Positions 10,296 to 50,991 of a stretch of 64,000 nt of DNA are shown here, in pieces. Location of the stretch: assembly GCA_963855995.1 (NCBI GenBank), contig OY979725.1, forward strand, positions 12,938,383 to 13,002,382. Direction: 5' to 3'. The stretch is from Muricea muricata (Eukaryota > Cnidaria > Anthozoa > Malacalcyonacea > Plexauridae). Each line of letters begins with the position of its first letter. The stretch's first letter is position 1. Both the position numbers and the translations under genes were made by a program. The notes under the pieces were generated by a model. That model searched no databases. It saw only the letters and a list, made by a program, of their open reading frames with translations, and was not told the origin of the DNA.

Positions 10296-10445
10296 GGTAA
10301 TAATTCCGTGTTCTCATATAAATCTTAATCCAAGCCCTAACCCAAACCCTAATCCTAACCAGCGTTTTATTTGTCATGTTTTTGATTAGATTTAGGACTT
10401 GGATTAAAATTTAATTTCGCGTACTGAGAACACGGAATTATTACC
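10296..10445. mobile_element. hAT-like MITE with 8-bp target duplication and telomere-like core
   Basis: The terminal inverted repeats are GGTAATAATTCCGTGTTCTC and its complement at the right end. AGGCTGCC occurs immediately outside both ends (10288-10295 and 10446-10453), an 8-bp target-site duplication as in hAT transposons. The middle carries several CCCTAA/CCCAAA/CCTAAC units resembling telomere repeats. There is no ORF. Confidence 0.75.
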
Positions 10446-10779: not shown

Positions 10780-13700
10780 TCACAAGCCACTGCGCAACAA
10801 CGCATGTTGGACAAGGTCTTTAGCTTCTTCAGCACATCCCCAAAACAAGCTCAAACCCGCGCCACCATGGCCATAATTGTGAACAATCTACGAAAAATAA
10901 GCGCAAATTCAAGGATATGGTTACAGGTGGAGAAATTTTCTTGCTCTGATAACGAGATACGGCTCAAAGAAGATTAAAAACAATTGCACAACATTCTGTA
11001 CCGGTAAGTTTACTTTTAATCCATATGGTGTCTTCACATTCATCACTTCTGTTTCCAAACGTACCGAGTCTCGGAATGGCCTCAGGCCTACGCATTGATT
11101 GATAATTTTACCATTCTAAGAAATAAACAAAGAGATTTTAAATTCCTTCTTCCAGAGGGGTCGAAGGGTCAAAATTTGTCACATCGCCAACCAATACCTA
11201 CACAAGAAACGGAAGAAAAGTAACAATTAACTAAAACGTACTCTTATGGTTGGTTCAAATTCAGAAACTCTGTCAAGAATAGCTTCGGTCTCTCTATCAT
11301 CAACATTTCTATCCCAGTTTCCACGTTGAGATGTACCTCCAACAATGACATCGTGGAATCTTTAGTTTCAATAAAAACATAACCTTATCATACGGGTTTA
11401 TAAATGCATCGCTCTTCGTAATTTCTGAACAATTCTGCCTCCTCAAACCCCCGCGTTAACTAAAAAGTACAGCGTCCAAACAGGGCGTCATTAGGTAGCT
11501 TATATAGCGTGCGTTTCAAGCACTCTTCCCAATCGATCATTCTAGATAAGGGACCGTTCATTATTTATACCTCAGGGGGCACCGAAGAGAAATTAAAAAA
11601 AGTATATATAAAAAAATTACCCAACCGCTCTGGGTGTTCAAATTTTTTTTACCCAACCTCTAATAGAAATCCAAGATTTTAAAGCTGCCTTTGTAAACTT
11701 AACTCGAAATGACTGTTTTATTTGTTTTTGTCATTGCGTTTTTCATGTATATGTTATTAACTGCGTTCGTTTATTAGCTATTATTATTCATTGTAGTATG
11801 TTCTCGTATTCTCATTGGTCTTTTTTTTCACCCAACCTTTTAGAGGTTTCAAAAATCAGTTACCCACCCAATTTCTCTTCGGTGCCCCCCCTGAGGTATA
11901 AATAATGAACGGTCCCTAAGAAACATCCCCAGTCACATCTAGGGCTTAGCAGTTTACTAACTTTCTCACGAGGGGTTTTCGCTCGTAACGTTCGTCGAAA
12001 TCTGTTTTCTCATTTCAGACAGTAAAAGAACCTGTACCTTTAGTGTACTGTTGACTTATGACTGCACTATCTACATTTTCAACACTAACTATTTGACTAT
12101 TTAGAATTAGTTCAACAATTTTACTTTACCGAGGAAAAATGTAGGTCGCTATTCCCGCCTCCAACTCAGCTTTTCTTTTAATATAGTAGAAGTGTTTCAC
12201 CCAAGGCACATGCATCTAAATAAAACAAAATATTACCATAACATATTCTTACCTAGGATAGACATACGCATATCTTCCTTTCATGAACTCGTTTTTTCGT
12301 ATTATTTTGCAAGAATGCTTAATCCACGGGGCATGTATCTAAAATAAATCACATGTCAAAGGTCTGATTTATTTTGTTTTTTATTTCATTTAGCTTTGCC
12401 ACAAGGGTAGGGTCGCGACAACAGCGTGAGCCAATTATTGTGTGCCCGTAGTTCCCCTCCCACCCTGTCAACTTTCCCTCTGGAACTGAGGAAACCGGAG
12501 TACCCGGAGTAAACCCACGACTCCATTTATTATTAGATAGTCCTGAAAGTTTCTCGGAATTCCAGAATTGTTCTTTGGCACCAAAGTGGAGAGTAACAAA
12601 TCAATTCAGCAATGAACAGCATGCTACAAAACCTTACCCTTAAAATATGCCCTCTTGCCGGCTGAATTGCGGTGTCGTCGCACAACTCACGCGAACCAAG
12701 TCCTGAACAGTTCACTACCACATCAAACTTTCCTGCAAACTAGAAACGAAATTGCTTTTAAAGATTTTATCATCTTTACCCTAGGATTCATTATTCAGGG
12801 TTTAACAATTTTTTGTCAAAAATTGCTCTTAATAAACTAGTAGATAATCGATCGTCAAGAAGTAATGTGCAATTGAGCATAACGAAAAAGATGGCAGCTG
12901 TACATTTTACTAGAATGCAATGCGGGCATCAAGCAAAAACGACTGAAAAAGATGCCAAGAAAAACAGCCAAAGATATAAAACTTTAACAACCTCCTCGCT
13001 TATGCTTGTGCTTCAACAGACGTCAATTTACTTTTGAAACGATTTATGACCGCAATTCATTCTGGTAAAATTTACATCCGTCATATTTTTCGTTACGGTC
13101 AATAGACCTTTCCAGTAATTACGTCACAACTACATGGAAGCGAGGCTGAGGGACCACTCCCACACCGAGTGTCCCCTCAGCCTCGCTTTCATGTAGCTGT
13201 GACGTAATTACCGAAAAAGTCTATTGAATCTTGACAGCAAAAATAGTCAGATGAATGTAATGTATATCTTTGGCGCTCAGGTAATTTAGGTCAGGAAAAA
13301 AGATGGTACATACAGGGCCTTCAGCCAAAATTGTTACATTATTACCTCGGCAAATGAATGGACCTTTCTTTTAACAACTTTTCCACCATTTTCCTGAAAT
13401 CTGAGCATTATGAGACCAGCATTTGAGAGAGTGGACAAGTTTTGTAGCAACAATTTTAAGTTCACATATTTTCTTACATTGCTGTATTATACTGATGGCA
13501 CAAAAATCAATTGCACTAGTAATAGCTTTCCTGTCTCATTTATGATTGAAATAAGGGATACAAAAGAAGATGATACAAAGGAATCATTGCATGAATCAGC
13601 ATGTGTTCAAACAATCTTGACAGTTTGGTCTAATAAATTTTTAGAGAGCTCATTAAGAGGAAGCATTTCAGAGGCGGGTTGGATAGAAAGACCTAACAAT

Positions 13701-14866
13701 AGAAGTAAAATAGTGTCCACTAAGGTTAAACTTACTGTCCCAACTTGATTTGAAGATATGGAGTACCAGGAAACATCATACTTTTCATTGTAAACCCATC
13801 GCTTAATTAAAGAATAACAGCAGGCAAGCCCAGTAAGAGAAGACAATGATTTTCAACATGACTGTATAAAGCAAAACAGTTCATCTTCTTTGTTCTAGCT
13901 ATATAAAATTTAAACAACTTCAATTCTTACATGAGGTCGGAAGAGAACCCTAGCTTCCTGATATCTTCTTTTGACAATCTTTTGTAATACAGACACACAT
14001 CCTTTAGATCAGGTTCCTACATAAATACAGTTTCCCATGTTTTTTATACATTTTAACTATCTTGAAATAAGTAAGCCTAATATGAGCATATCATTGTTGA
14101 GCCCTGGATGAGTGAGGGCGTGGCATGGGGGAGGGGAGATACTCAGTGGAATTCACATTTTACCCTTTCTGATGTCAATTTCCCAGCAAAAACCTAGCCA
14201 AATGGGGTCTGGCCAAATGGGAAAACTGTTTTTTTCAGCAGACTTCAGTAATTTAATTACTCCATGTCAACCCCCTTCCTCCTGCATGATATTATAATCC
14301 CCCATCTTCACCTAACAGGTGAAGATGGGGGATTATTATAATATCATGCAGAAACTCAGGCATGGTTTGTGTTGAAATGGAGTTGGTTCGTACCTCGTGC
14401 ATGACGTGGTCATAAAGCACATATCCTGTGGTGTAACTCAACTTGTAGAGACAATCTGTGTCGAATTCTATTAGTGACTTTAGATAATGGAATGTAGCTT
14501 CGCCCCATTGTCTGGAAAAGACACATAACACTTTGCAAAGTTGCAACGAGGATTAAACTCGCGTGAACTGGACGGTTCAAATATCAACACTGACAACCGA
14601 TTTACAAAACAAACATTAAATTTAATACAGAATGACGTACAGGCGGCGCATCACCTTTGCTTGTGTTTTGCAGTGTTTTTCATCCAAATACCTGGAATTG
14701 AGGACCACAAGCCTGCACCGATATCACTCGTAAGGTGATCAGGACTGAATTCCTCCGCTATGATTGTCAAATCCAAACATGGGTCTGAATCTTGCAGGCA
14801 AATTGCAGTTGAAATACCCATTATTCCAGCGCCGACAATTGCAACCTTTTTGCGTGCTTGCGACAT
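10780..14866 (-). CDS. DDO: D-aspartate oxidase (FAD-dependent D-amino-acid oxidase family), complete
   Basis: This enzyme oxidatively deaminates D-aspartate/D-glutamate using FAD and is normally peroxisomal. Exons: 14655-14866, 14394-14511, 13931-14016, 13736-13801, 13346-13400, 12638-12727, then 12253-12338 OR 12130-12215, then 11242-11359, 11014-11115 and 10780-10887. All phases close and give 346 residues, the usual length. Visible motifs are the dinucleotide-binding VGAGIMG at residues 11-17, [12 protein letters not shown], the PARGHIL strand, [20 protein letters not shown] (the first Arg is the substrate-carboxylate Arg of the family) and the C-terminal [30 protein letters not shown] and VGLRP.R..VRL favour DDO over DAO. 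The protein ends SGL, close to but not a canonical PTS1, so peroxisomal import is uncertain. The acceptor of exon 6 could also be 12733; I chose 12727 because it keeps phase. Confidence 0.93.
11550..11916. mobile_element. MITE with long TIRs and TAA duplication (DDO intron)
   Basis: Terminal inverted repeats of about 45 bp begin GGGACCGTTCATTATTTATA and continue into CTCAGGGGG.CACCGAAGAG. The flanks are TAA on both sides (11547-11549 and 11917-11919), a 3-bp duplication typical of PIF/Harbinger-type elements. It is 367 bp with no ORF and lies in the intron after the lid exons. Confidence 0.75.
12130..12215 (-). other. DDO alternative lid exon, copy b
   Basis: This is a second 86-nt copy of the lid exon, 37 nt after copy a. 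It starts MHVPWVKH and ends TYIFP, plus CG, which also completes an Arg. Its acceptor (ATTTAG) and donor (GTAAAG) are intact and phase is identical. Including both copies would shift the reading frame, and the 37-nt gap is too short for a normal intron, so the two look mutually exclusive. Confidence 0.85.
12253..12338 (-). other. DDO alternative lid exon, copy a
   Basis: This 86-nt exon encodes a 28-residue segment starting IHAPWIKH and ending AYVYP, plus two bases (AG) that complete an Arg with the next exon. In the DAO/DDO family this stretch follows the PARGHIL strand and forms the active-site lid with its tyrosines. It has a proper acceptor (ATTTTAG) and donor (GTAAGA). Confidence 0.85.
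12360..12525. repeat. SINE-like interspersed repeat, copy 1
   Basis: This shares a long stretch with 49325-49505: a TTTATTT..ATTTAGCTT start, GCCACA.GG.CAGGGTC, CCCACCCTGTCAACTTTCC, and the compact block GGAAACCGGAGTACCCGGAG then AAACCCACGACT. It lies in a DDO intron between exon 6 and the lid exons. Confidence 0.65.
13099..13227. mobile_element. Near-palindromic foldback MITE (DDO intron)
   Basis: Two arms of about 60 bp pair with few mismatches: TCAATAGACCTTTCCAGTAA, then TTACGTCACAACTACATG, then GCGAGGCTGAGGG, each with its complement on the right. It is about 129 bp in total with no ORF. The right arm occurs with small differences (CGGTAA, CAGCTAC). Confidence 0.75.
14282..14351. repeat. 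70-bp perfect hairpin in DDO intron 2
   Basis: The left arm CTGCATGATATTATAAT plus CCCCCATCTTCACCT pairs with the right arm read backwards. The only difference is an extra 3 bp (AAT) in one arm, and the loop is 3 bases. It sits about 40 bp downstream of the exon 2 donor. It could be a small foldback element. Confidence 0.8.
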
Positions 14867-32398: not shown

Positions 32399-35300
32399 TC
32401 ACACCTGTTCCAAACTTTCCTGTAGTTCATCGATTTCCTTCATTATCGCCTCTTCAGAATTAATTTTAATAATCTGAAAAAAAGGAGGGCAAACTGGAGC
32501 ACTATCGCAAAGCTCAAAGACTTATCTAAGCCTTTGATCCACTACCTCTATCTATCTACCCAATCAGATGTGTCCCACCCTCAAGATTAGCCAACCAGGT
32601 TCCTTGTAAGTCAGGAAAAGGCAGCTAAACCTCGCTATTACCTGCAGATCTTCTAATACTTCTCCTTCGTCCTGCTTAGATTTCAGTTTTTCAATCTGTT
32701 GCAATTTCTTCTTTAAGCCTCGTATTCTCTTCTCAGTTTGTTCCTGTGGACTTTGACTGTCTGTAACTGTGTGTGTAGAATCTTCGCTCGCTTCAGTTTG
32801 GGAATGTTCAGCAGCCTCGCCAGGCCTGGAAAAATAAGCTTTAAAACTGCAGCTTTAGGCGATTCCATTCAAGTTTCCTGCACTCAGGAACATTTTAATT
32901 TCCCCAATAAAGAATAGACAGGAAAGCCGAGCCAAACTAATCGGACGTCACAACAGAAAACCCTATTCTTGCATGCGTTCAGGAAATTGTTTTGAATGAA
33001 TATTCCTGTTTACGATTTACTGAAACACAATAGAATGTTATTCCAAAGACATTGTCAAACCAATAGATTAGATTACAAACAGGCTGTGCTATACAGGGTG
33101 TATAAAAAAAAGTAGACAATTTTGAAACGGCTCTCAACCTCGCGAAGCGGCTTGAAGTATGAAGCTTTTTATTAATATAAATTGTTTGGGTACTTACGGT
33201 GTAGAATAAATGAAAATATTCTGAAATTTAAATGTTTCATACCCAGGGCTGTGCGTATTTTGAAACACATTAAAAATGGCTTGCGCACGAAATTTAAAGG
33301 CTTAAAAGTAATTTTGAGTTGGTAGGTAGAAAATATGTTACGTGTTTTATCGCTGTGCAAAATTTCAAGAAATTTGATTGAGTTTAAGCCACTCAAAACG
33401 TCGTGCGAACGTATATTTTTCTCAATAAGAATCGTTTTTCTGAAGAAATGTTCCAATTTTAATTAAATGTCCCTTGGGAGTTGTATGCAAATTAAATAAA
33501 TACATAAATTAAACATGCACAAAGCTAATTTTGCTAAAAATATGGAAGTTCGCGCCACGTTTTGAACGGCTTACACTCAAGCGAATTTTCTGAAATTTTG
33601 TACAGCAATACAACACCCGACAAATTTTCCATCTACCAAGTCAAAATTACTTTTAAGCATTTAAGTTTTGTGCGCAAGGCATATTTAAATTGCCGTAAAA
33701 GACAGAACCCCCCGGGTATTGAAGTTTTAAATTTCTCATGTTTTCGGTTTATTCTAGATTATAAGTACCAAAACCATCTATTTTAATAAAAAAAAACATC
33801 GCACATTGAGGCGCTTCGCGAAACAGAGAGCGATTTCAGATTTGTCTACTTTTTTTTTATACACCCTGTATATTTACAAAGTTCAGTCTTGGCAAGCTGT
33901 AGTTAGCCAATCAGGTGAAGAACAATGAAGGAGTGCGTGGGTTGATGAAGCGTTACAAAAATAAAGATAATTGTTTGCTTGCTTTGAGTCCACAGTTTAA
34001 TAACTCTGGCATTTTACGTTTTATGAATAGCGCTTCTAGTATAAGCAACTGATTAGGATTTGTTATATTTACATAAATACAAGATTTTAGAATTGGTGTA
34101 GACCAAGGAAGTAGAAAAACTATAGATTCATATTAATCTGACACTGCAGAGTAGCTACATACTCTATCCCATTATATATTAATGGCAACAGGCTTAAAAA
34201 CATGCAAACATAACAACAATCATTTAGTAAAACTACTGTCATGGTAATTTAGGAATTTTCTCAGCATGTAGAAACTACGACGCTATAGTGCGAGAGCAGC
34301 AGGAAAACAAACGTATATCAGTATATGGTGGTTTGATCTCTTACTACATCAGTTACAAATCAGAATTCCTGTGAAAATGTGCGATATCCAATCAGATAAT
34401 GAAGAAAGTGCACTAGTAGAAAGTACTGACACGATTGGTATAGATTTAGAACTCCTCCCAAAAGAACGTGGAAAGACAGTGAAATATATGTCAGCAGCGG
34501 TGTGTTTCACTACAGCCGCATTTGTAGTGTGGATTGGTATGACCTATCGACAAGATGTGTTCGTGTTTTACCCTAGTCTCATTATTGAAGCACGAAGAAA
34601 TATAACAGATTTTATGGTTTGTTACATGAAAGAGGAGAGCGTAACCTTTTCCTGCTTATTCACAGTTGCGTTGGTCTTATTTGGTGTAGAATTTGGTGCA
34701 TTAGTCGATCCTTTATCGCGTCTGGTTGAAGAATGCCATCATCGCCGTCAACGTTACGAAGGAAGTTGGGAGAAATTGATCAAAGCTTGTTTTAGTGGAA
34801 TCGTCCGGAGTCGAATATTCGCTTTAATACTCATAACAGCAACTGCCATAACTGTCATCATTGTGACAGAAAGACGTTCGTTTGAGCCAAGCTATTTTGC
34901 ATACATTTGCAGTGGTGTTTGCATAGGTCCGCTTATAACGCAATTTGTAGACCTGAACACAGAATCCAAAGTTTATCTTTCTACTTTGCTCGAGGAAAAT
35001 GGAATGAATACGGCCAATGTACTTGGGTGGTCTTACTATTTTGCCTATCTTAAACCAGCAGTGAAAATGTTTGTAGAACAAACACAACTCGGCCGCCATG
35101 CTGAACTGTCTTTACATAAACTGCTGTTGCTAATACCAGTTGATTATCCTACTGCAGACGACTTGCAGCAAATCGATAATAATATAGAGTTAAGTTTAAG
35201 TGAGCACTCTAATACGTATTCATTGCACTACTCTGTCTATCAGCTATTAACAGTCGACGAACAATTTGCCATACAATACGTTCAACAGCCTTTAAAAACT

Positions 35301-38300
35301 TTGAGATCTATGACGTCCTTTCAGGGAGACCAAGCCACAAATGTGAAGATCTTCGATGGGGAAGTGAAACTACTTTACAGAACATTGACTCAAATAGTTA
35401 CACAAGACGAGGATATTAATAAAACGTGCCTACTCGTGCCTATCAAAACTGAAAACATCTCAAGTTTACAAAACGGAGGGCTAGTTAAACGTATCATGGC
35501 TGCAGTTCATCGTTCCCCTACATTGGAGAAAACGATCCCGTGTAAAAAAACTGTGAAAGAACAACACAAGATAGAAAGCGTTTGACTTATCGTGCCACTG
35601 CGTCAAGATCTGTAATGCGTCTTCTATGCGTTGTATCAACCTCTATTCTTCGTATCTATTCCTCTTCTATTTTTCATACTTACGGGGGGACACCCTCCCC
35701 CCCACCACTTTTTGGATAGGGGGACAAATATCTATTATGCCCCACATAATTTAGATAATCACATTATTTGTACAAACTTTTAGCTTCAGAAATGTATTCT
35801 AATAATTTGCATTTATTTAATTAATAAAAATACCATGATTTGTAATCTTTCTAGAAAAATAAAAATAATCAAAAATGATGGGAAAATGCAATTGTAAATA
35901 AGCTTTGGCTTTGCGGGATAACAACTATAGCAATCAGTATGATATTTTTACTATTTGCATGTAAGACTGTGATTGTTCATTATTTTTATCGCTGCAAATT
36001 GTACATTGACTATTGTCGATGTTAATAAAGTTAATTAAATTAACACTGAAATATTATACGATCATTAAAACGGTGTGTTACGTTCTCAGGATTTTTAAAC
36101 AAGTTTGAATTTTTTATGAGTGAAAGAGACTATTTACCTAATCAGCGAGATAATTTAAAAATTAACTATGAATAAAGTACACATACAAGTACTTCCAAAC
36201 GACATATTATCAACAGGCAAATTAGCATCCACTAAATCGACGAATGTATTATGTTCGCTCGAGGATATCTGCACGGTTAGGGGGCTGGCAAGCCATTAAG
36301 CATCGCCTTGTTATGTCATTATACTCAACGTCTGTTGCGCTTCATTATTTATGGTTTATAATTCACTAACCTGGTTTGCAAAAATATGTCTCCTAGCGCG
36401 TTTTCCAAGGGCGAAAATACCAGGAGACAATGTCTCCCAGAAAAACTCTCACGGGGGAGGGAAGTTATAATTATCAAATCATTGTTATCAAAGATCTATA
36501 ATCAATCTTTGCAATGCCACTGAGTACGTTTTGATGCTTTTAATCTTACACACCAAGATCAATACAGATATTTTTATGTTTTGATCTTACCCAAACCCAA
36601 TATTTCTCAATCGTTGAAACAGTGTGACTTATTTAATTAGTATTTTTTCATGCACGAAACCTAAAATCAAGTGTAGATTTGTCAGCTGTTCCCGATACAC
36701 GAATACCTGCCATTTCCAACCCTTGTTGTGACAGCGAAAGGGTTACAACGCCATTAGCCATAAGCGTCTTAGTTCTTATTATGTCGAAATGGATAATGAA
36801 CAAATTGCAACCAGAGAGAATGTTACGTATGACTTTGAATTTGATCTTATTCCAAAAAAACGGGGGAAACGTCAGAAATATGTATGGGCATTGATATGTT
36901 GGATGGTAGCAATATTTTTACTGGTGATTGGTTTATCGGGTGAAGAATATGTGTATTCCATAGACGAATCACAGAAAAATACGACAGATTGCTTCAAAAG
37001 AGAGAAAAAGAGAACGGTTTCGGGTTTATTTACAATTGGGTTGATCATATTTGGTGTGATGGTTAGTAAACTGTTTGAACGTCTGTCGTTTCTAATTGGA
37101 GAGTGCTTTCAAGTAAGTGAGCGTTATGAAGGAAAACATCGCAAAGTGATAAAAGCAATCTGCCACAGTGGAAAATTTTGGACGAAAATAGGAATTTTGG
37201 CATTCATTAGCTTGCCGACTTACTTTGGTTTTATCCAGTCAGAAACGATTGAATTTGAGCTGAAACATCTTATAACCATTGCCAGCGGTATTGGCGTGGG
37301 CCCACTTATAGTTACCTTGCTTAACCTGAACGCAGAATCCGACGTTTACATTGCTACACTTCTTGAGAAAAGAGGATTGTATGCGAGCGACGAAATTGTC
37401 CAGGTTTACTATCGCAAGTACCTTTGTGATCAACTGGATAAATTTAACAATATCGTATTTACGGATGAATATCGCGACCTGTCATTGGAGAAATTGTTGT
37501 TGCTGATCACACTTGATCAAATCGAAGACGATCTAAGCAAGGAAGATAACGCAATTGTAAAGTTACGTAGCACTGACGATGATCCTGATAAATGTATCTC
37601 GGTTTATGAACTATCAGTCAGCGAAAACAGAAAGGTGGTCTATGCCATAGCATGTGCCAAAAAACCTTTAGAAATTTTGAAATTTATAAAATCGCATAGA
37701 GAGGGTGAACCAAAACGAACAACTTTTGTCGAGGAAGCGAAATTATTCTGCAGAGGATTGTCTGACAATTTAAAGGAACGCGGCCACCAAAGGTGTGTAC
37801 TCGTGCCCATAGCGGCACAAAATTTACAAAACGGATGCCTATCGAGATGTATTGTGGAAGTGGTGTATCGAAGTGAACAGGCTGGCTGTGTTCCTGGTTT
37901 CATAAAACTTAAAACTCGTCATGTTACAAACTATACTCGCATTGAAGAAGACAGTCATGACAACGGTGGTCCAAGAACATCAGGTATCAATTTTTCAGTG
38001 TACAGCGCGTTGAGAGGGACAGATGTATAAGTGACATATGTGGGCTTCCACGATTCAAGGAACTCAGCGTACTATACATTTTTTTCATATATTCAAATCG
38101 TCAAAATTTCAAGTAATTCTATATTATTGTTTTCATGGGTTTTAAGGTTCTCATTTTATTACAAGATTTTTTTAATCTAATTCTTTTAACTCGTCTTCCT
38201 CTTTTGTCAAATTTAATTCCCTTCCGTTTAGTAATGTAAAATTCAAATTTACGTATTCATATAAAATTAATTCAAAATCTATTATTGTACATCACAGGGC

Positions 38301-41300
38301 AGACAATTAGATACTGTATTGCAATGAAACACTATAAGATTGTCTATAAAATAGTCAGAATTTCTACGTCGGTCATGTTATTAAGCAGGCGTTGAGTATA
38401 ATAATATAGTTTGAAAAACAAATCAGCAATTTAAAAAACCGACCGCAAAATTATTTGACAAATGTACTTTCGTTTGCTGAAACCCGCAACAATCAGAGGC
38501 TAAAATGAACTCACAAAAATCAAGATTTCTACTCTGCAGGATACAAACTGAAAAATTGTAAACATGTTGATGGTCTGGATGCGTTGACACTACAAAGATT
38601 TTTTTGGCCTTAAAAGGTAACCTTGTTTGGGAAAATACCTCCCTCCCTACGATGCTTGTCAACGGAGAAAATACCAGGGAACAATGTCTCCCAGAGAAAT
38701 TCTCACAGGGCAGGAAGTCATTGTTGTCAAGTGATTGTTATCAAAGAACTAATCAATCTTTGCACTGTCATTGAGCATATTTCGATGCTTTTGATCTTAT
38801 AGACCACTGGGATACATTGTTTCACCCACTCATGTTTTACAATGGTTTATTTCACAACAAGCAGCCACCTCAGAAAAAAGGGTCAGGTGTTGGGGTGAAG
38901 TACGTGCGGATAAAACCGGAGGATAAGAGCGAATGTGGATGAATAAAGTGTACAAGACATGTTTAATATGTGTTTGTAAAACGTAACAACAGTTCAAATA
39001 TCCCGATTGCATGCATGCAAAGCTGTAGTACAAAAACTTAGCATATTTCGTTGCTTTTGATCTTATAGATCACTGGGATACATTGTTTCACCCGGTTTCC
39101 AATAGTCTATTTCACAAAAACTAGCAGTAACTGCCTGCCAGTGGCACCCACCTCAGTAAAAAGGGTTGGGGTAAAGTGCGCAAGGATAAGAGCAGAGGAT
39201 AAGAGCGATGGATAATGTGCCTAAGTTGTCTGTAATTTCACAATATTAACCAATTTTTTTTTTTGTTACTCGTTACATAACACAACGATTGTACCTTTTC
39301 TAAATCGCTTTTTCACTGAAATAGTAGCAATAGGTGGATAGACTAAATCTCTCTGTCTTACTGTCTTATATATGTGTTGAATTTAGATAGAGGAAAACTG
39401 GAGTACCGGGAAAAAAACATTCAAAACGCATGAGATCAACTCACGGAAACCATGCAAACCACACCATGCAATCCACACCATGCAAATAACCTCTTACACT
39501 ACACGGGCCTGTATCTTTTTAAAATATCTCTGCTCTATCCAGTCAACATTTTAGAAGAAGTTGATGCTAGCCTGTGCAATGTGTGTCGAGAAACAGAATT
39601 ATTTTTAGCCTGCAGGATACAAACAAAAAAATTGTAAACATGTTGGTCAGGACGCGCTGTTACTCAATAAACCTGGTTTGGGAAAATATCTCCCCTACGA
39701 CGCTTTTCAACCAGGAGACAATGCCTCCCAAAAAATTCTCAGTTCATTGTTATCAAGTCATTGTTATCAAAGAACTAATCAATCTTTGCAAAGTCATTGA
39801 GCATATTTCGATGCTTTTGATCTTACAGACCACTGGGAGACATTGTTTCACCCACTCATGCTTCCAATAGTCTATTTCACAACTGACACCAAAGTGCGCA
39901 CAAGAATAAAAGCCAAGGATAAGAGCAAGCGTAGGTAGATAAAGGATACTTTATATTAAGACATGTTTAATGTTTGTTTGGAAAACAGCCGTTCACTATT
40001 TCGCGCAAAGCTGCAGTACAGAACTTGGCATTGGCGAAGCAAATGATGTTTAGTTAACAGTTCAAATATTTTTAACACACGTGCATGCAGCAGGACTCTT
40101 GATTAAGCCTGAAGTAGAGTCCACATATTTTTTTTTAATTTGCATGATTAATTTGCAGTTTGATTTCCTCTCCAGCTTCGCTCGTACCACTCTCACACAA
40201 ACTGTCTCCATATGCAATTGTATAGTCCATGCCAGACGTCCCAGCCTCGTAAAACAAAGCTGTAACCTGACATTTTATCACTTCTTCCATGTCAGCATTG
40301 CCTAGCTACTGCACGCGAAGCATATTCCAACTTCCGCTTTTGCTTTCATTTTGTCGTTGCTCTTTGCTTTGATGTTGTCATTTCCACGCCCAACGTGACA
40401 ACACGCGCGCGTAAGTATATACTGGTTTGGTCTGTTACTGCAACAGTTATATTGATAATCTTTGCAATATTGGTGTCAAGATGCGCGATATACAATCAGT
40501 TCATGAAGAGAAAGTCCCTCAAATTACGGACACGATAGGTATAGATTTTGAACTCCTTCCAAAGAAACGCGCAAAGACAGTGAAATATATATCAGAAGCA
40601 ATATGTGCGATCACAGCCTCGTTTGTGATGGCGATTGGTATATTATTAAGTGTAGAATTTGAAGCACTGGTTGGCCCTCTATTAGTCAGGGAGGCAGAGG
40701 TCATTTTACCTACCTTCTCGAGGGACAAATCCATTTTGCTCTTAAATTGTCCGTTACATGCCTAATATAACAATTCTGAATGTTGTTTGGCCCAATTTAT
40801 CTTGTGGGCTTCGATCAACACGTTTTTCTTCAGTTTTATTATAAAACTATTATGTGGTCAAAAATAGCAAACTTTCAAGTTCATTCATTTGAAAAATGAC
40901 TTGTATCATCAGAAAGCTTATAAAAAACAACATATAAGACATGATTACGGACACCCTGGTTTTTCAAGCTGTTTTCGAGTTATTGCTGCTTCAAAACGGC
41001 AAAATGTCCTAAAATGACGCTAATTTCCTGGGCACTAATCTGAAAATAAGTTTTCGAATGCCCATAACTCAACAAAAATGTGGAAAATAAAAGTAACCAT
41101 AATAATGTGTTATATGTAGTTTTTTATTACCTTTTTGATAACGTAAGTGGTTTTTCCTAGAAATAAGTCCGAAATTTCGCCTTTTTTGACAATAATATAG
41201 TTTTATAGAAAATTTAAGAAAAAACGTGTTGGCTGGAGCCCACAAGAAAAATTGGGCCAAACAACATTCAGAATTGTTATATTAGGCATGTAACGGACAA

Positions 41301-46800: not shown

Positions 46801-49800
46801 ATGATCAGCTTTGTGATTCGCCTTTTGAAACAAAAGTCATCATTGTTTGTGATTCGTTCTTTAGAAAACCAGTTTCTATGGTTTACTGTCTTTCATTGTC
46901 ATAACCAACCCCTCACAAAACCTGTTAATAAAGGTTGGTGGCAATCCCGATGGCGGTATAAAGACTTCCAGTATCATTTATTGAAAAAAAGAATGGAAGG
47001 ACCGAAAAAGCATAGAGACGGTTTTCTGAAAAAGTGCCTGTAAAGTTTGCACAGTATTGTTGTATTTAAAAAGCTCTGTGATAGTTACGTACCGACGCAC
47101 TTCCCCTTCTCTCGTATTAGCCCTGGCATGCAGGGACACTCGTATCCATTCTCCTTATTACGGCACTCCTCTCCATCGCCACATTTGTGCGTTTGAATTA
47201 AACACTCATTAATGTCTAAAAAGTAATGGGCTTAAGCATTTCTCCGTTTGACACGCAACATTGAACTTGTGGGAGGGACAGTGGTATGGTTCAAAAACTG
47301 TTAAAGTAGCTCAGATGTACTATATAGAACATGAATGACACCAATATATGAAAACAGCTGTAACAGGAATATATGAATATTCAACACCTCCTCCCCCCCA
47401 AAACAAACCGCTAACCTCACCCCTGTATTTGGCCAGAAATTGTTGGGTAGGATCATAGTTAATAAAGCTAGATGGTTTGGAAACTCATTAGAACTACAAT
47501 ATAAGTCATTATCTATGTTGTTGTTCTGGTTTATGCAGAAATAAGGTCCTTCATCGTCACGTGCGTATTGTGTTCTTGCCTAACTAACCAATAACAACGT
47601 TTTAGGAAAGTTAGCCATGCGCAACTTGAACAATAGGGCAATTCAAAAATTGCTATTGGTGGATTTGGCAAAAACACAATACACACGTGACGATGAAGAA
47701 CCATATTTTGCATAAACGTTGACCAACATAGATAATGAGTTATATTGTTATTCTAATGAGTTTCCAAACCATCTACTCTATTAACTATGGTAGGATTGAC
47801 CACAAGATTCCTCTTCTCATAAGGAGTGCACGTATGTTTAATGACGCGTCCTGTATGAGGAGGATAGACAACAAAAAGAGCTTACCATGACATCGATGGC
47901 CCAGTTTTCCAGATGGCAATGGAGTGCTTTCGCAAGTGAAATTGCTGGAACATAAATTCTTGTTAAGTTTACAAGGATCAGCAGCTGTCCAACGAAATGA
48001 AAATGAGTTGGTATTGAGTTTACAAGAAGGGAGAAATTTTAAATGCTAGCAAACAAGCCACTCACGAACACACAACTTTGTTTCCTTGTCCTTCACTAAA
48101 CCTTTCGGGCACAGGCAACGGTATCCTGTTTTGTCCAGGTTTTTGCAGACTTCAGGATATGCACATAGGTTGTTAAATAGTTTACATTCATTAACATCTG
48201 GAAAGATATGATGGAATTACAACAAGACACTTATGGCTTGGTATGGTATGGTATATGGCATGGCATGGTATAGGATGGTACGGTATGGTATGGTATGGCA
48301 AAGCATGACATGGCATGGTCTGACATGACATGGTATGGTATGGTATCGTACCGTACCGTATGGTATGTAGTTCGTTGCTGGACAAGATGTTACATCACTC
48401 ACCGGAACATATAGCAGACTTCCGACCACTTTTACACGTTGTCTTACCCGGCTCACATGGACCTTTGCGACAGTAATCAGGTTCTGAAGAAAGTAGACGG
48501 TAAAGATATGGAGGCGGTGGGGGAGTTGTTTACACTTCGACTGCCAAACCTTGGAACCTTCGATCTACTAGGTAAGAAGAACAAAATGTCTTACTACAGC
48601 TGAAAATAAGATCCGAAGTAGAATTGCAAATTTGGTGGCGAAATGTTGTAAAATACGGAAATTATAGCCCTGCCAAGCTTGCAAATTTGTATATGTTTGT
48701 AGTATGGGGGGAAAAGTTACCATTTTCGATGCAATTTTAGCTCAAAAATGGTAACTTTTTCTGTGCGTAATACAAATGTATACGAAATTTGAAAATTTCA
48801 CAAGGCTGTATTTTTCCGTATATTCCAGCTTTGCACTGCTACGAATCTTAAGATTGTCTTTCTGGCTGCAGTAAAAGATTTCATTTCTTCTTCCAGTCCA
48901 TCGTATATTATGCAAATTATCAATTAAAAAACATTCCTACAAACCTAATTGAGGACATACTAGTTGTTCCGGAACGTCACGAAAAAGAAACCATTTCGAA
49001 ACAGTGTGTTTGCCTTCCTTTGTCAATCTCATCTTGTCGCAATATAGTTCGCCGTAGTCTCCAGTGCTTGCTATGGATTTCCTTTTGAAACTTCTGACTA
49101 GCCATAGTGACTCACAGTCACAAGGAAAGTCACCCTTTATAACCCTAAGTACAATCTTTTTGTTAGGGATAATTCAAACATGGTTGTCTTCAAAAATTTA
49201 AAATCTAAATTACAAAACCCAAAATGCGAACCAAAAATGCATCAAGGGTTGACTTCATGACTTCCAGTCAAGTAGCGAAACCCTATGTTACTATAAAAAC
49301 GCATGTTGTATCTGAGTGTTTTGGATTCTTTAATTTAAATTTTAGATTTTTTATTTTATTTTATTTTATTTCATTTATTTTATTTAGCTTAGCCACAGGG
49401 GCAGGGTCACCACAACATCGTCAGCCAATTACTGTATTACCTATCCCACCCTGTCAACTTTCCCTGTGGGAGGAAACCGGAGTACCCGGAGAAAACCCAC
49501 GACTTTTGGCAGAGCGTTGACTTTACTCTTTTCACATGAGGACTGGGTTCAAATCCACCTTACTGGGGATGAAACTCGGAACCTTAGAGGTGAAAGGCAA
49601 GTGATTTGATCACTACACCACCGAAGCCCCACAAAGGTAAACCTTTTTTCAATTAGCTGTATATTTATATATCAAGTATATCTATATATCAAGTATATTT
49701 GAAAGAAACAAATGAAAAATCCTGAGCCAAGCAGAGTCGAGAAAAAAAGCGTACACCAGAAGTCCTTCATAACTGAGTTTTCCAGTTTTTGCAAAAACAT

Positions 49801-50991
49801 CGCGTTCCGTCCACGGCCATGGGATACCTCGGTGTGGCCACTGTGAGCAATCCCAATAATATTGTTTAAGTTTGCATTGTTTTTTGAATCGAACTGGCCC
49901 TGAGAAAGACATTGAATTGTTAAAATAGAGTAGGGAAGCATCGAGTATTTCACTGTATGCTATGCTATAACATGGTATGGTATGGTATGGTATATGGTAT
50001 ATGGTATATGGTATATGGTATATGGTATATGGTATATGGTATATGGTATATGGTATATGGTATATGGTATATGGTATATGGTATATGGTATATGGTATGG
50101 TATATGGTATGGTATGGTATGGTATGGTATGGTATGGTATGGTATGGTATGGTATGGTATGGTATGGTATGGTATGGTATGGTATATGGTATGGTATATG
50201 GTATGGTATGGTATATGGTATGGTATATGGTATGGTATGGTATAGTATGGTATTGTATACTATGGTATACTATGGCATGGTATACTACGGTATGGTATGG
50301 TATGGTATAATATGGCATGGTATGGTATATGGTATGGTATGGTATGGTATGGTATGATGCTATACTTACTCGTTTTGCAGATTAGGTGTTCTTTATTTTG
50401 ATACGAAATAACGTCACTTCCTTTGTGTCCGAAATTAGCACATTTCAGGCTGCTAATATCTACAACTTTTTTCAATTCTTGCGGAACTTCTCGTAAAAAC
50501 CAAATCATGCTGCAGTCACAGACGTACGGATTGCCAGTGAGTCGGCTAAACAAAGGAAAACGTTCGATGAGTGACTTTGATGAGTACCTTGTGAGCAAAG
50601 TTAAGGCCCTGTCACACGGTGCAATTTTTCTTGTAACTTGCAACGCAATTCTACTCTTAAGAGATGTAAATTTGTGACAAATGTTTGCTATGTTAAAAAT
50701 ATATTAGCAACCTGTGATGGAAACTTGTATTTGCCAATTTTACAGCTCCCAAGAGTAGAATTGCATTGCAAGTTGCAAGAAAAATTGCACCATGTGACAG
50801 GGCCTTCAGCATACGTACATTTTTGCGACTTCGTTATAATCATACGGAACGTTTTGAAATCCCATATTTCGGCAGTCTTTAAAGCTTTTATTTATCGACC
50901 GGCAGTCTTTGATGGATGGCAACTTGCCATTTGCAACGATAAAAGACCACGCCAAAATATTGGCAAGAAGCGATCCTGTAGCAAATCGCAT
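43828..50991 (-). CDS. Receptor A: LRRNT-LRRCT-EGF repeat type I membrane protein, complete
   Basis: Sixteen exons chain in phase: 50819-50991, 50370-50545, 49755-49899, 48945-49144, 48403-48483, 48066-48197, 47886-47984, 47093-47215, 46390-46482, 46117-46245, 45778-45897, 45515-45634, 45312-45431, 45039-45173, 44502-44592 and 43828-43879. They encode 662 residues: signal peptide, short LRRNT-like Cys region, LRRCT cap ([13 protein letters not shown]), two further cap-like Cys modules (one with [11 protein letters not shown]), then ten Cys-rich modules. At least seven of these are EGF domains, several with the calcium-binding start D(I/V)NEC. A membrane helix ([21 protein letters not shown]) and a short tail with the di-leucine sorting signature ESERLL follow. 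It is divergent from receptor B across 170 bp. The ligand is unknown. The exon 3-4 junction is the least certain. Confidence 0.85.
47454..47789. mobile_element. MITE in receptor A intron
   Basis: CATAGTTAATAAAGCTAGAT then GGTTTGGAAACTCATTAGAA pairs with the reverse end TTCTAATGAGTTTCCAAACC. Inner segments (TTCATCGTCACGTG / CACGTGACGATGAA) also pair. It is about 336 bp with no gene. Confidence 0.75.
48232..48365. repeat. (TATGG)n-type simple repeat, degenerate
   Basis: Imperfect GGTATGGTATGGCATGG-like pentamers fill a receptor A intron. Open frames on the minus strand here are low-complexity readings. Confidence 0.85.
49325..49630. repeat. SINE-like interspersed repeat, copy 2, with tRNA-like tail
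   Basis: This matches 12360-12525 through GCCACAGGGGCAGGGTC, CCCACCCTGTCAACTTTCCC and GGAAACCGGAGTACCCGGAG. It continues past CCCACGACTTT into GGGTTCAAATCCACC (B-box-like) and GTGATTTGATCACTACACCACCG, a tRNA-related stretch. Confidence 0.65.
49971..50358. repeat. Long (GGTAT)n and (ATATGGT)n satellite array in receptor A intron
   Basis: Nearly 400 bases alternate between a 7-bp unit (GGTATAT) at 49990-50095 and a 5-bp unit (GGTAT) at 50095-50360. All six frames stay open, giving spurious YGMVW-type peptides. The array ends 11 bases before the LRRCT exon's donor. Confidence 0.95.
50605..50804. mobile_element. MITE next to the receptor A first-exon donor
   Basis: GGCCCTGTCACACGGTGCAA then TTTTTCTTGTAACTTGCAA faces TTGCAAGTTGCAAGAAAAA then TTGCACCATGTGACAGGGCC. 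It is 200 bp, about 60 bp per arm, and ends 14 bases from the exon edge at 50819. No clear target duplication was seen. Confidence 0.8.

Follow-up and report, generated by a model that had tools for sequence, protein, structure and literature searches.

Two homologous, probably mutually exclusive exons for the active-site lid in a D-amino-acid/D-aspartate oxidase family gene of Muricea muricata

A gene of the family that comprises D-amino-acid oxidase (DAO, or DAAO) and D-aspartate oxidase (DDO) was found in a 64,000-nucleotide stretch of the genome of the cnidarian Muricea muricata (contig OY979725.1, hereafter the window, in whose numbering all positions are given unless stated otherwise), and this gene carries two different versions of the exon that encodes the lid over the active site. 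The explanation that we favour, and that the sequence makes reasonably probable, is that of a single oxidase gene with an old tandem duplication of its lid exon, mutually exclusive splicing of the two copies and two substrate leanings as the outcome. Each transcript would join exons 6-7a-8 or 6-7b-8, and stray transcripts that contain both copies or skip the exon would be degraded as nonsense. The enzyme made with exon 7a (Lys224, Tyr240) would lean towards acidic D-amino acids (D-Asp, D-Glu) and that made with exon 7b (Tyr224, Phe240) towards neutral or bulky ones, and the swap would also alter lid dynamics and rate.

The whole gene lies on the minus strand (14866-10780) and has 10 exons with either 7a or 7b. 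Its model was built by hand from translations and then checked by script; with 7a or with 7b the coding sequence is of 1053 nt and encodes 350 residues from start to stop without internal stops, and all the introns are GT-AG. Exon 1 (14655..14866) holds the start codon and the GxGxxG dinucleotide-binding motif in the form GAGIMG, and matches the N-terminus of human DDO and DAO. It is followed by exons 2 (14394..14511) and 3 (13931..14016), by exon 4 (13736..13801), where a stretch of 16 residues was aligned with GWFHTSLILEGKNYLQ of DAO, by exon 5 (13346..13400) and by exon 6 (12638..12739; VVNCSGLG...RGHILR), which ends in phase 0. Downstream of the two lid exons, exon 8 (11242..11359) begins by completing the split codon that either copy leaves, exon 9 (11014..11115) encodes GLRPFR with the arginine for the substrate carboxylate, and exon 10 (10780..10887) carries the family signature HNYGHGGAG and a TGA stop. 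The predicted C-terminus, Ser-Gly-Leu (10783-10791), is presumably a non-canonical peroxisomal ending of the PTS1-like kind. Inverted-repeat, MITE-like stretches were also observed at 11549-11917, 10296-10445, 13099-13227, 14290-14340 and 12872-13103, four of which are intronic to the oxidase gene, the fifth lying directly downstream; perfect terminal repeats of 31 bp bound one in the intron between 7b and 8, and another, in intron 5, consists of arms of 61 nt that stand 7 nt apart and are complementary at 89%.

Exons 7a (12253..12338) and 7b (12130..12215) are each 86 nt long, begin in phase 0 and end in phase 2, and have an AG acceptor and a GT donor. Each encodes 28 residues and the start of a split codon, AG in 7a and CG in 7b, which exon 8 completes to Arg in both cases (AG|A or CG|A). 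The two are thus a tandem-duplicated pair, adjacent and homologous, of equal phase, each of which completes the reading frame. When both copies are joined the frame shifts and a stop is reached five codons past the junction-spanning Arg codon, and when neither is used the frame also shifts, with a stop inside exon 8. The layout given in the preliminary description, with two 86-nt exons of equal phase, intact splice sites, a spacing of 37 nt and a loss of frame upon joint use, was therefore reproduced in the script-checked model. When the window was searched for the lid segment by tblastn with isoform a as the query (E up to 10), no third copy was found, the sole hit besides 7a and 7b being an unrelated one (E 5.1).

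Joint use is thus opposed by the frameshift with its early stop and also by the gap between the copies (12216..12252), which is bounded by GT and AG and, at 37 nt, is probably too short to be spliced. Any branch point in it would be closer than 37 nt to the 7a donor; candidate branch adenines were found by a loose scan for TNA at positions 14 and 20 of the gap, and the only match to yUnAy lies 5 nt from the acceptor. The threshold from 5' splice site to branch point used in the literature is about 50 nt (PMC5740500, PMC7969005), and we infer that 7a-to-7b joining is blocked because the two sites are too close. Among the human mutually exclusive clusters reported in the first of these papers, 9% have a short distance between donor and branch point and 60% have exon lengths that break the frame (PMC5740500); the twin lid exons combine both features. 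Regarding the strength of the sites, the 7b donor (TCG|GTAAAG) agrees with the consensus at 5/9 positions, fewer than any of the other nine donors, and pyrimidines are slightly less frequent at the 7a acceptor (10/17) than at the 7b acceptor (12/17).

It had also been claimed that 37 nt is below the usual minimum for an intron, and this agrees with the intron lengths of the same genome. The other introns of the oxidase gene are of 126-893 nt, and 58 adjacent match pairs in kinesin and myosin genes gave estimates of at least 59 nt, with a median of 535, from a hand-picked and not wholly systematic set of rows (105 of 123 for kinesin and 40 of 102 for myosin, 145 of 225 together). The gap is therefore shorter than every intron measured, the shortest being of 59 nt by estimate and 71 nt by eye, although the rows left out, namely many with several internal stops, the contig 6 myosin array and some ordinary ones, might conceal a short in-frame intron. 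Seven places were inspected, at four of which introns of 71, 78, 83 and 78 nt were read by eye; two suspected short introns (L028 and L029) proved to be continuous reading frames, and at another place (L031) no intron was resolved by eye. The cluster of myosin-head matches at G000:C6:12490734-12663795, with equal or nearly equal scores and model ranges, is probably a tandem array.

The assignment of the gene to the family is clear. Both isoforms match Pfam DAO over the whole length (E 7.6e-34 for a and 1.9e-32 for b), and among PDB structures they match best that of human D-aspartate oxidase (6rkf; E 5.6e-61 and 2.4e-61, respectively), followed by D-amino-acid oxidases; isoform b scores slightly above a against human DDO and DAO and slightly below it against Pfam DAO. 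With human DDO (6rkf) and DAO (2du8) the protein shares the homology over the whole length, the FAD motif, the catalytic Tyr and the Arg for the substrate carboxylate, so that together with HNYGHGGxG the features of the DAAO branch of PF01266 are complete. The more specific label of D-aspartate oxidase, as first proposed, fared less well: membership of the DAO/DDO family stands, but it is doubtful that the enzyme is a DDO proper. In the alignment its identity is 36% to human DDO and 35% to human DAO, about equal, so overall similarity does not separate the two. In the acid-binding set of D-aspartate oxidase (Arg216, Arg237, His54), Arg237 is replaced by Ser and His54 by Gly, both in the constitutive part of the protein. 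The lid is of DAAO-like length, with 13 residues between 224 and 238 compared to 12 in DAO and 6 in human DDO (counted from anchors), the equivalent of DAO Tyr224 is Gly in both isoforms, and the pocket is aromatic in b and Lys/Tyr in a.

The position of the twin exons over the active-site lid, already noted in the preliminary description, was supported by the alignment with human DDO and DAO, and the pocket was mapped on an alignment of 53 rows that included prokaryotic relatives. The change of a lid Tyr to Phe pointed out there is real and falls at residue 240, Tyr in a and Phe in b, opposite DDO Tyr225 and DAO Ile230; a second change had been missed, at residue 224, which is Lys in a and Tyr in b and stands in the 53-row alignment opposite DAO Leu215 and human DDO Arg216. 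The catalytic lid Tyr238 (DDO Tyr223, DAO Tyr228) is present in both copies, and the carboxylate Arg (DDO R278, DAO R283) is conserved. As read from these alignments, exon choice would therefore swap two pocket residues together while leaving the catalytic Tyr and Arg unchanged. These positions are of known weight, since DDO Arg216 forms a salt bridge with the side chain of D-Asp and its R216Q variant gains D-Ala activity, DDO Tyr223 and Tyr225 are in contact with the bound substrate, and the side-chain pocket of DAAO is formed in part by Leu215 and Ile230 (PMC8260693), Leu215 being described as the key specificity residue (PMC5715370). Furthermore, pig DAAO with part of the lid from human DDO gained DDO activity (PMC6697736, citing Setoyama 2006), a laboratory counterpart of the exon swap that was engineered in that case and is natural here.

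The placement of Leu215 at 224 was the same in both MAFFT alignments, but that of Arg216 was unstable: it is found at 224 only by the 53-row alignment and by the count H+3, a 4-row MAFFT alignment sets it farther along, opposite the Lys (a) or Ala (b) of an MKG/EAG stretch, and in the phmmer alignments its counterpart is Arg227 for isoform a and Lys226 for isoform b, a basic residue in both. Prokaryotic loci related to the gene numbered 49, of which 31 were kept by a filter on Y/F/C238, R293 and G192, several of the 18 dropped being visibly in the wrong translation frame; no relative was found in viral contigs. Residue 224 is Val in 9 of the 31, Leu in 7, Ala in 4, and Ile and Ser in 2 each; Arg, Thr, Gln and Phe occur once, Lys does not occur, and 3 rows have a gap there. 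On the residues discussed, isoform a looks more DDO-like and isoform b more DAAO-like, although a, with its long lid and one basic residue in the pocket, would not be a copy of human DDO, and Lys224 alone may be insufficient for a D-Asp enzyme because the part common to both isoforms has Gly and Ser in place of His54 and Arg237 of DDO.

These same data bear on the strongest rival explanation, in which both exons are used but their exchange adjusts rate, stability or regulation, through lid dynamics, FAD affinity or an interaction surface, and not the substrate range. The central lid residues 225-237 differ widely between the copies, slow lid movement is reported to limit product release in human DAAO (PMC8260693), the shared part has neither His54 nor Arg237 of DDO, and the phmmer placement of Arg216 would leave a basic residue there in either isoform. 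Against it, both changed residues map to the side-chain pocket and one of them alternates between basic and aromatic, and a basic residue at 224 is unusual, being found as Arg in a single one of the filtered prokaryotic relatives. We therefore regard an effect on rate or regulation alone as unlikely, though with an appreciable chance of being right.

The second rival explanation, in which one copy alone is used, the second being a relic or entering transcripts at noise level, can be weighed by comparing the copies themselves. Ungapped, they are identical at 50 of 86 nt (58%) and at 12 of 28 residues; the coding identity of 49/84 nt was never reached in 10,000 codon-order shuffles (40 at most), nor was the BLOSUM62 score of 69 in 20,000 shuffles of the residues (31 at most), so the claim that the exons are homologous but different holds. 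An assembly or allelic duplicate was ruled out by the same low DNA identity. Synonymous differences are saturated (pS 0.82), whereas pN is 0.32 and dN 0.42 (Fisher p 5e-4). Neutral decay of either copy from the other was simulated, with one copy fixed and a single rate, at distances of 0.6, 1.0, 1.2 and 1.5 (20,000 runs per setting), and a run passed when its frame stayed open, both splice dinucleotides survived and 12/28 residues or more were retained, all three together; none of the 20,000 runs passed at 1.0, 1.2 or 1.5, of which 1.0-1.2 give about the observed third-position identity (12/28), and 0.2% passed at 0.6, the smallest distance tried. By eye, of the 10 positions of the segment common to human DAO and DDO, a retains 6 and b 7, five of them (P217, W218, H221, Y238 and P241) being kept in both. 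The duplication thus appears to be old and both copies look long constrained, and both are probably in use because saturated synonymous change with limited protein change hardly ever arises from simulated neutral decay. The use of a single copy would agree with the weak 7b donor and with the fewer pyrimidines of the 7a acceptor, but given this pattern, with frame and splice sites intact in both copies, we consider it distinctly improbable. Least credible of all is an on/off switch, in which one exon gives an active enzyme and the other, or double inclusion followed by nonsense decay, silences the gene, as the immediate stop upon double inclusion and the departure of the 7b pocket from that of human DDO might suggest, since b keeps the catalytic Tyr238 and, despite its slight lag against Pfam DAO, runs slightly ahead of a against the human enzymes.

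Mutually exclusive use of the lid exons with two substrate leanings, the explanation that we prefer, has further implications depending on the number of family members in the animal. Protein searches of the 453-Mb genome found no DAO/DDO paralogue outside the oxidase gene, within a sensitivity limited by matching exon by exon: all the matches lay in this gene, 10 with its own protein, 2 with human DAO and 3 with human DDO, and the search with Pfam DAO did not have the gene among its matches, so that a divergent paralogue could escape. The signature H[NH]YGHG[GSA]xG occurs once in the 453 Mb (0 in the reversed control) and, with one mismatch, at three more places, one of which has an in-frame stop; the other two were rejected as paralogues for having no further DAO similarity nearby. 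At one of these two (L027, YSLRLVHNYGHEGEG) 15 residues are similar to the oxidase gene, with an E of 0.005 that refers to a three-locus database, and stops are found upstream. The gene is thus apparently the only DAO/DDO member of this animal, and a single gene where humans have two makes a splice switch of specificities more plausible, provided that no divergent paralogue was missed.

On this basis it can be proposed, tentatively and as a possibility that we still hold to be doubtful, that the choice of lid exon lets one gene yield two oxidases, one of the D-aspartate type and one of the neutral D-amino-acid type. If so, splicing would do here what vertebrates do with separate DAO and DDO genes, and the breakdown of D-Asp and of neutral D-amino acids would be set tissue by tissue. 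The human pair of family members degrade D-aspartate and D-serine, and the splice event proposed here would remodel the pocket of an enzyme of their family and would bear on how the specificities of DAO and DDO can originate without gene duplication. As the two predicted enzymes differ in one 28-residue segment only, with two candidate specificity positions, they offer a clean test.

Twin exons for a substrate gate are known but rare. In COQ-2 the choice between exons 6a and 6e changes residues of the active site and with them the substrate, and its authors consider natural splice events that remodel a substrate pocket to be rare (PMC7434440); that enzyme is an unrelated polyprenyltransferase and its case was shown by genetics and chemistry, whereas the oxidase pair is known here from sequence alone. 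The fatty-acid gate exons of ACSL6/ACSL1 are likewise a mutually exclusive pair at the active site with Phe vs. Tyr (PMC1543647), in an unrelated enzyme, and the oxidase pair changes in addition a second pocket residue (Lys/Tyr). For human DDO four isoforms are predicted, by exon 4 skipping and alternative start, and for DAO splice variants are described as not reported (PMC8260693); in none of the DDO isoforms given there is the lid exchanged, unlike in the isoforms predicted for the Muricea muricata gene. No DAO/DDO gene with mutually exclusive or duplicated exons was found among the matches listed by the literature search, in which subscription journals are thinly covered, and to that extent the earlier statement that no such gene had been described stands.

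Elsewhere in the window, tandem STING-like genes were observed on the plus strand at 34272-35585, 36732-38030 and 40415-40765. The first is a single long open frame with matches to STING_LBD (E 1.7e-11) and STING_TM (E 1.6e-9), and the second, also a single long open frame, matches STING_TM barely over the cut-off (28.3 vs. 28.1 bits); the third is shorter, with an N-terminus that resembles by eye that of the first and no Pfam match. The repetitive open frames (HTIPY / WYGMV) that occur on both strands at 49682-50381 are spurious products of a long simple repeat.
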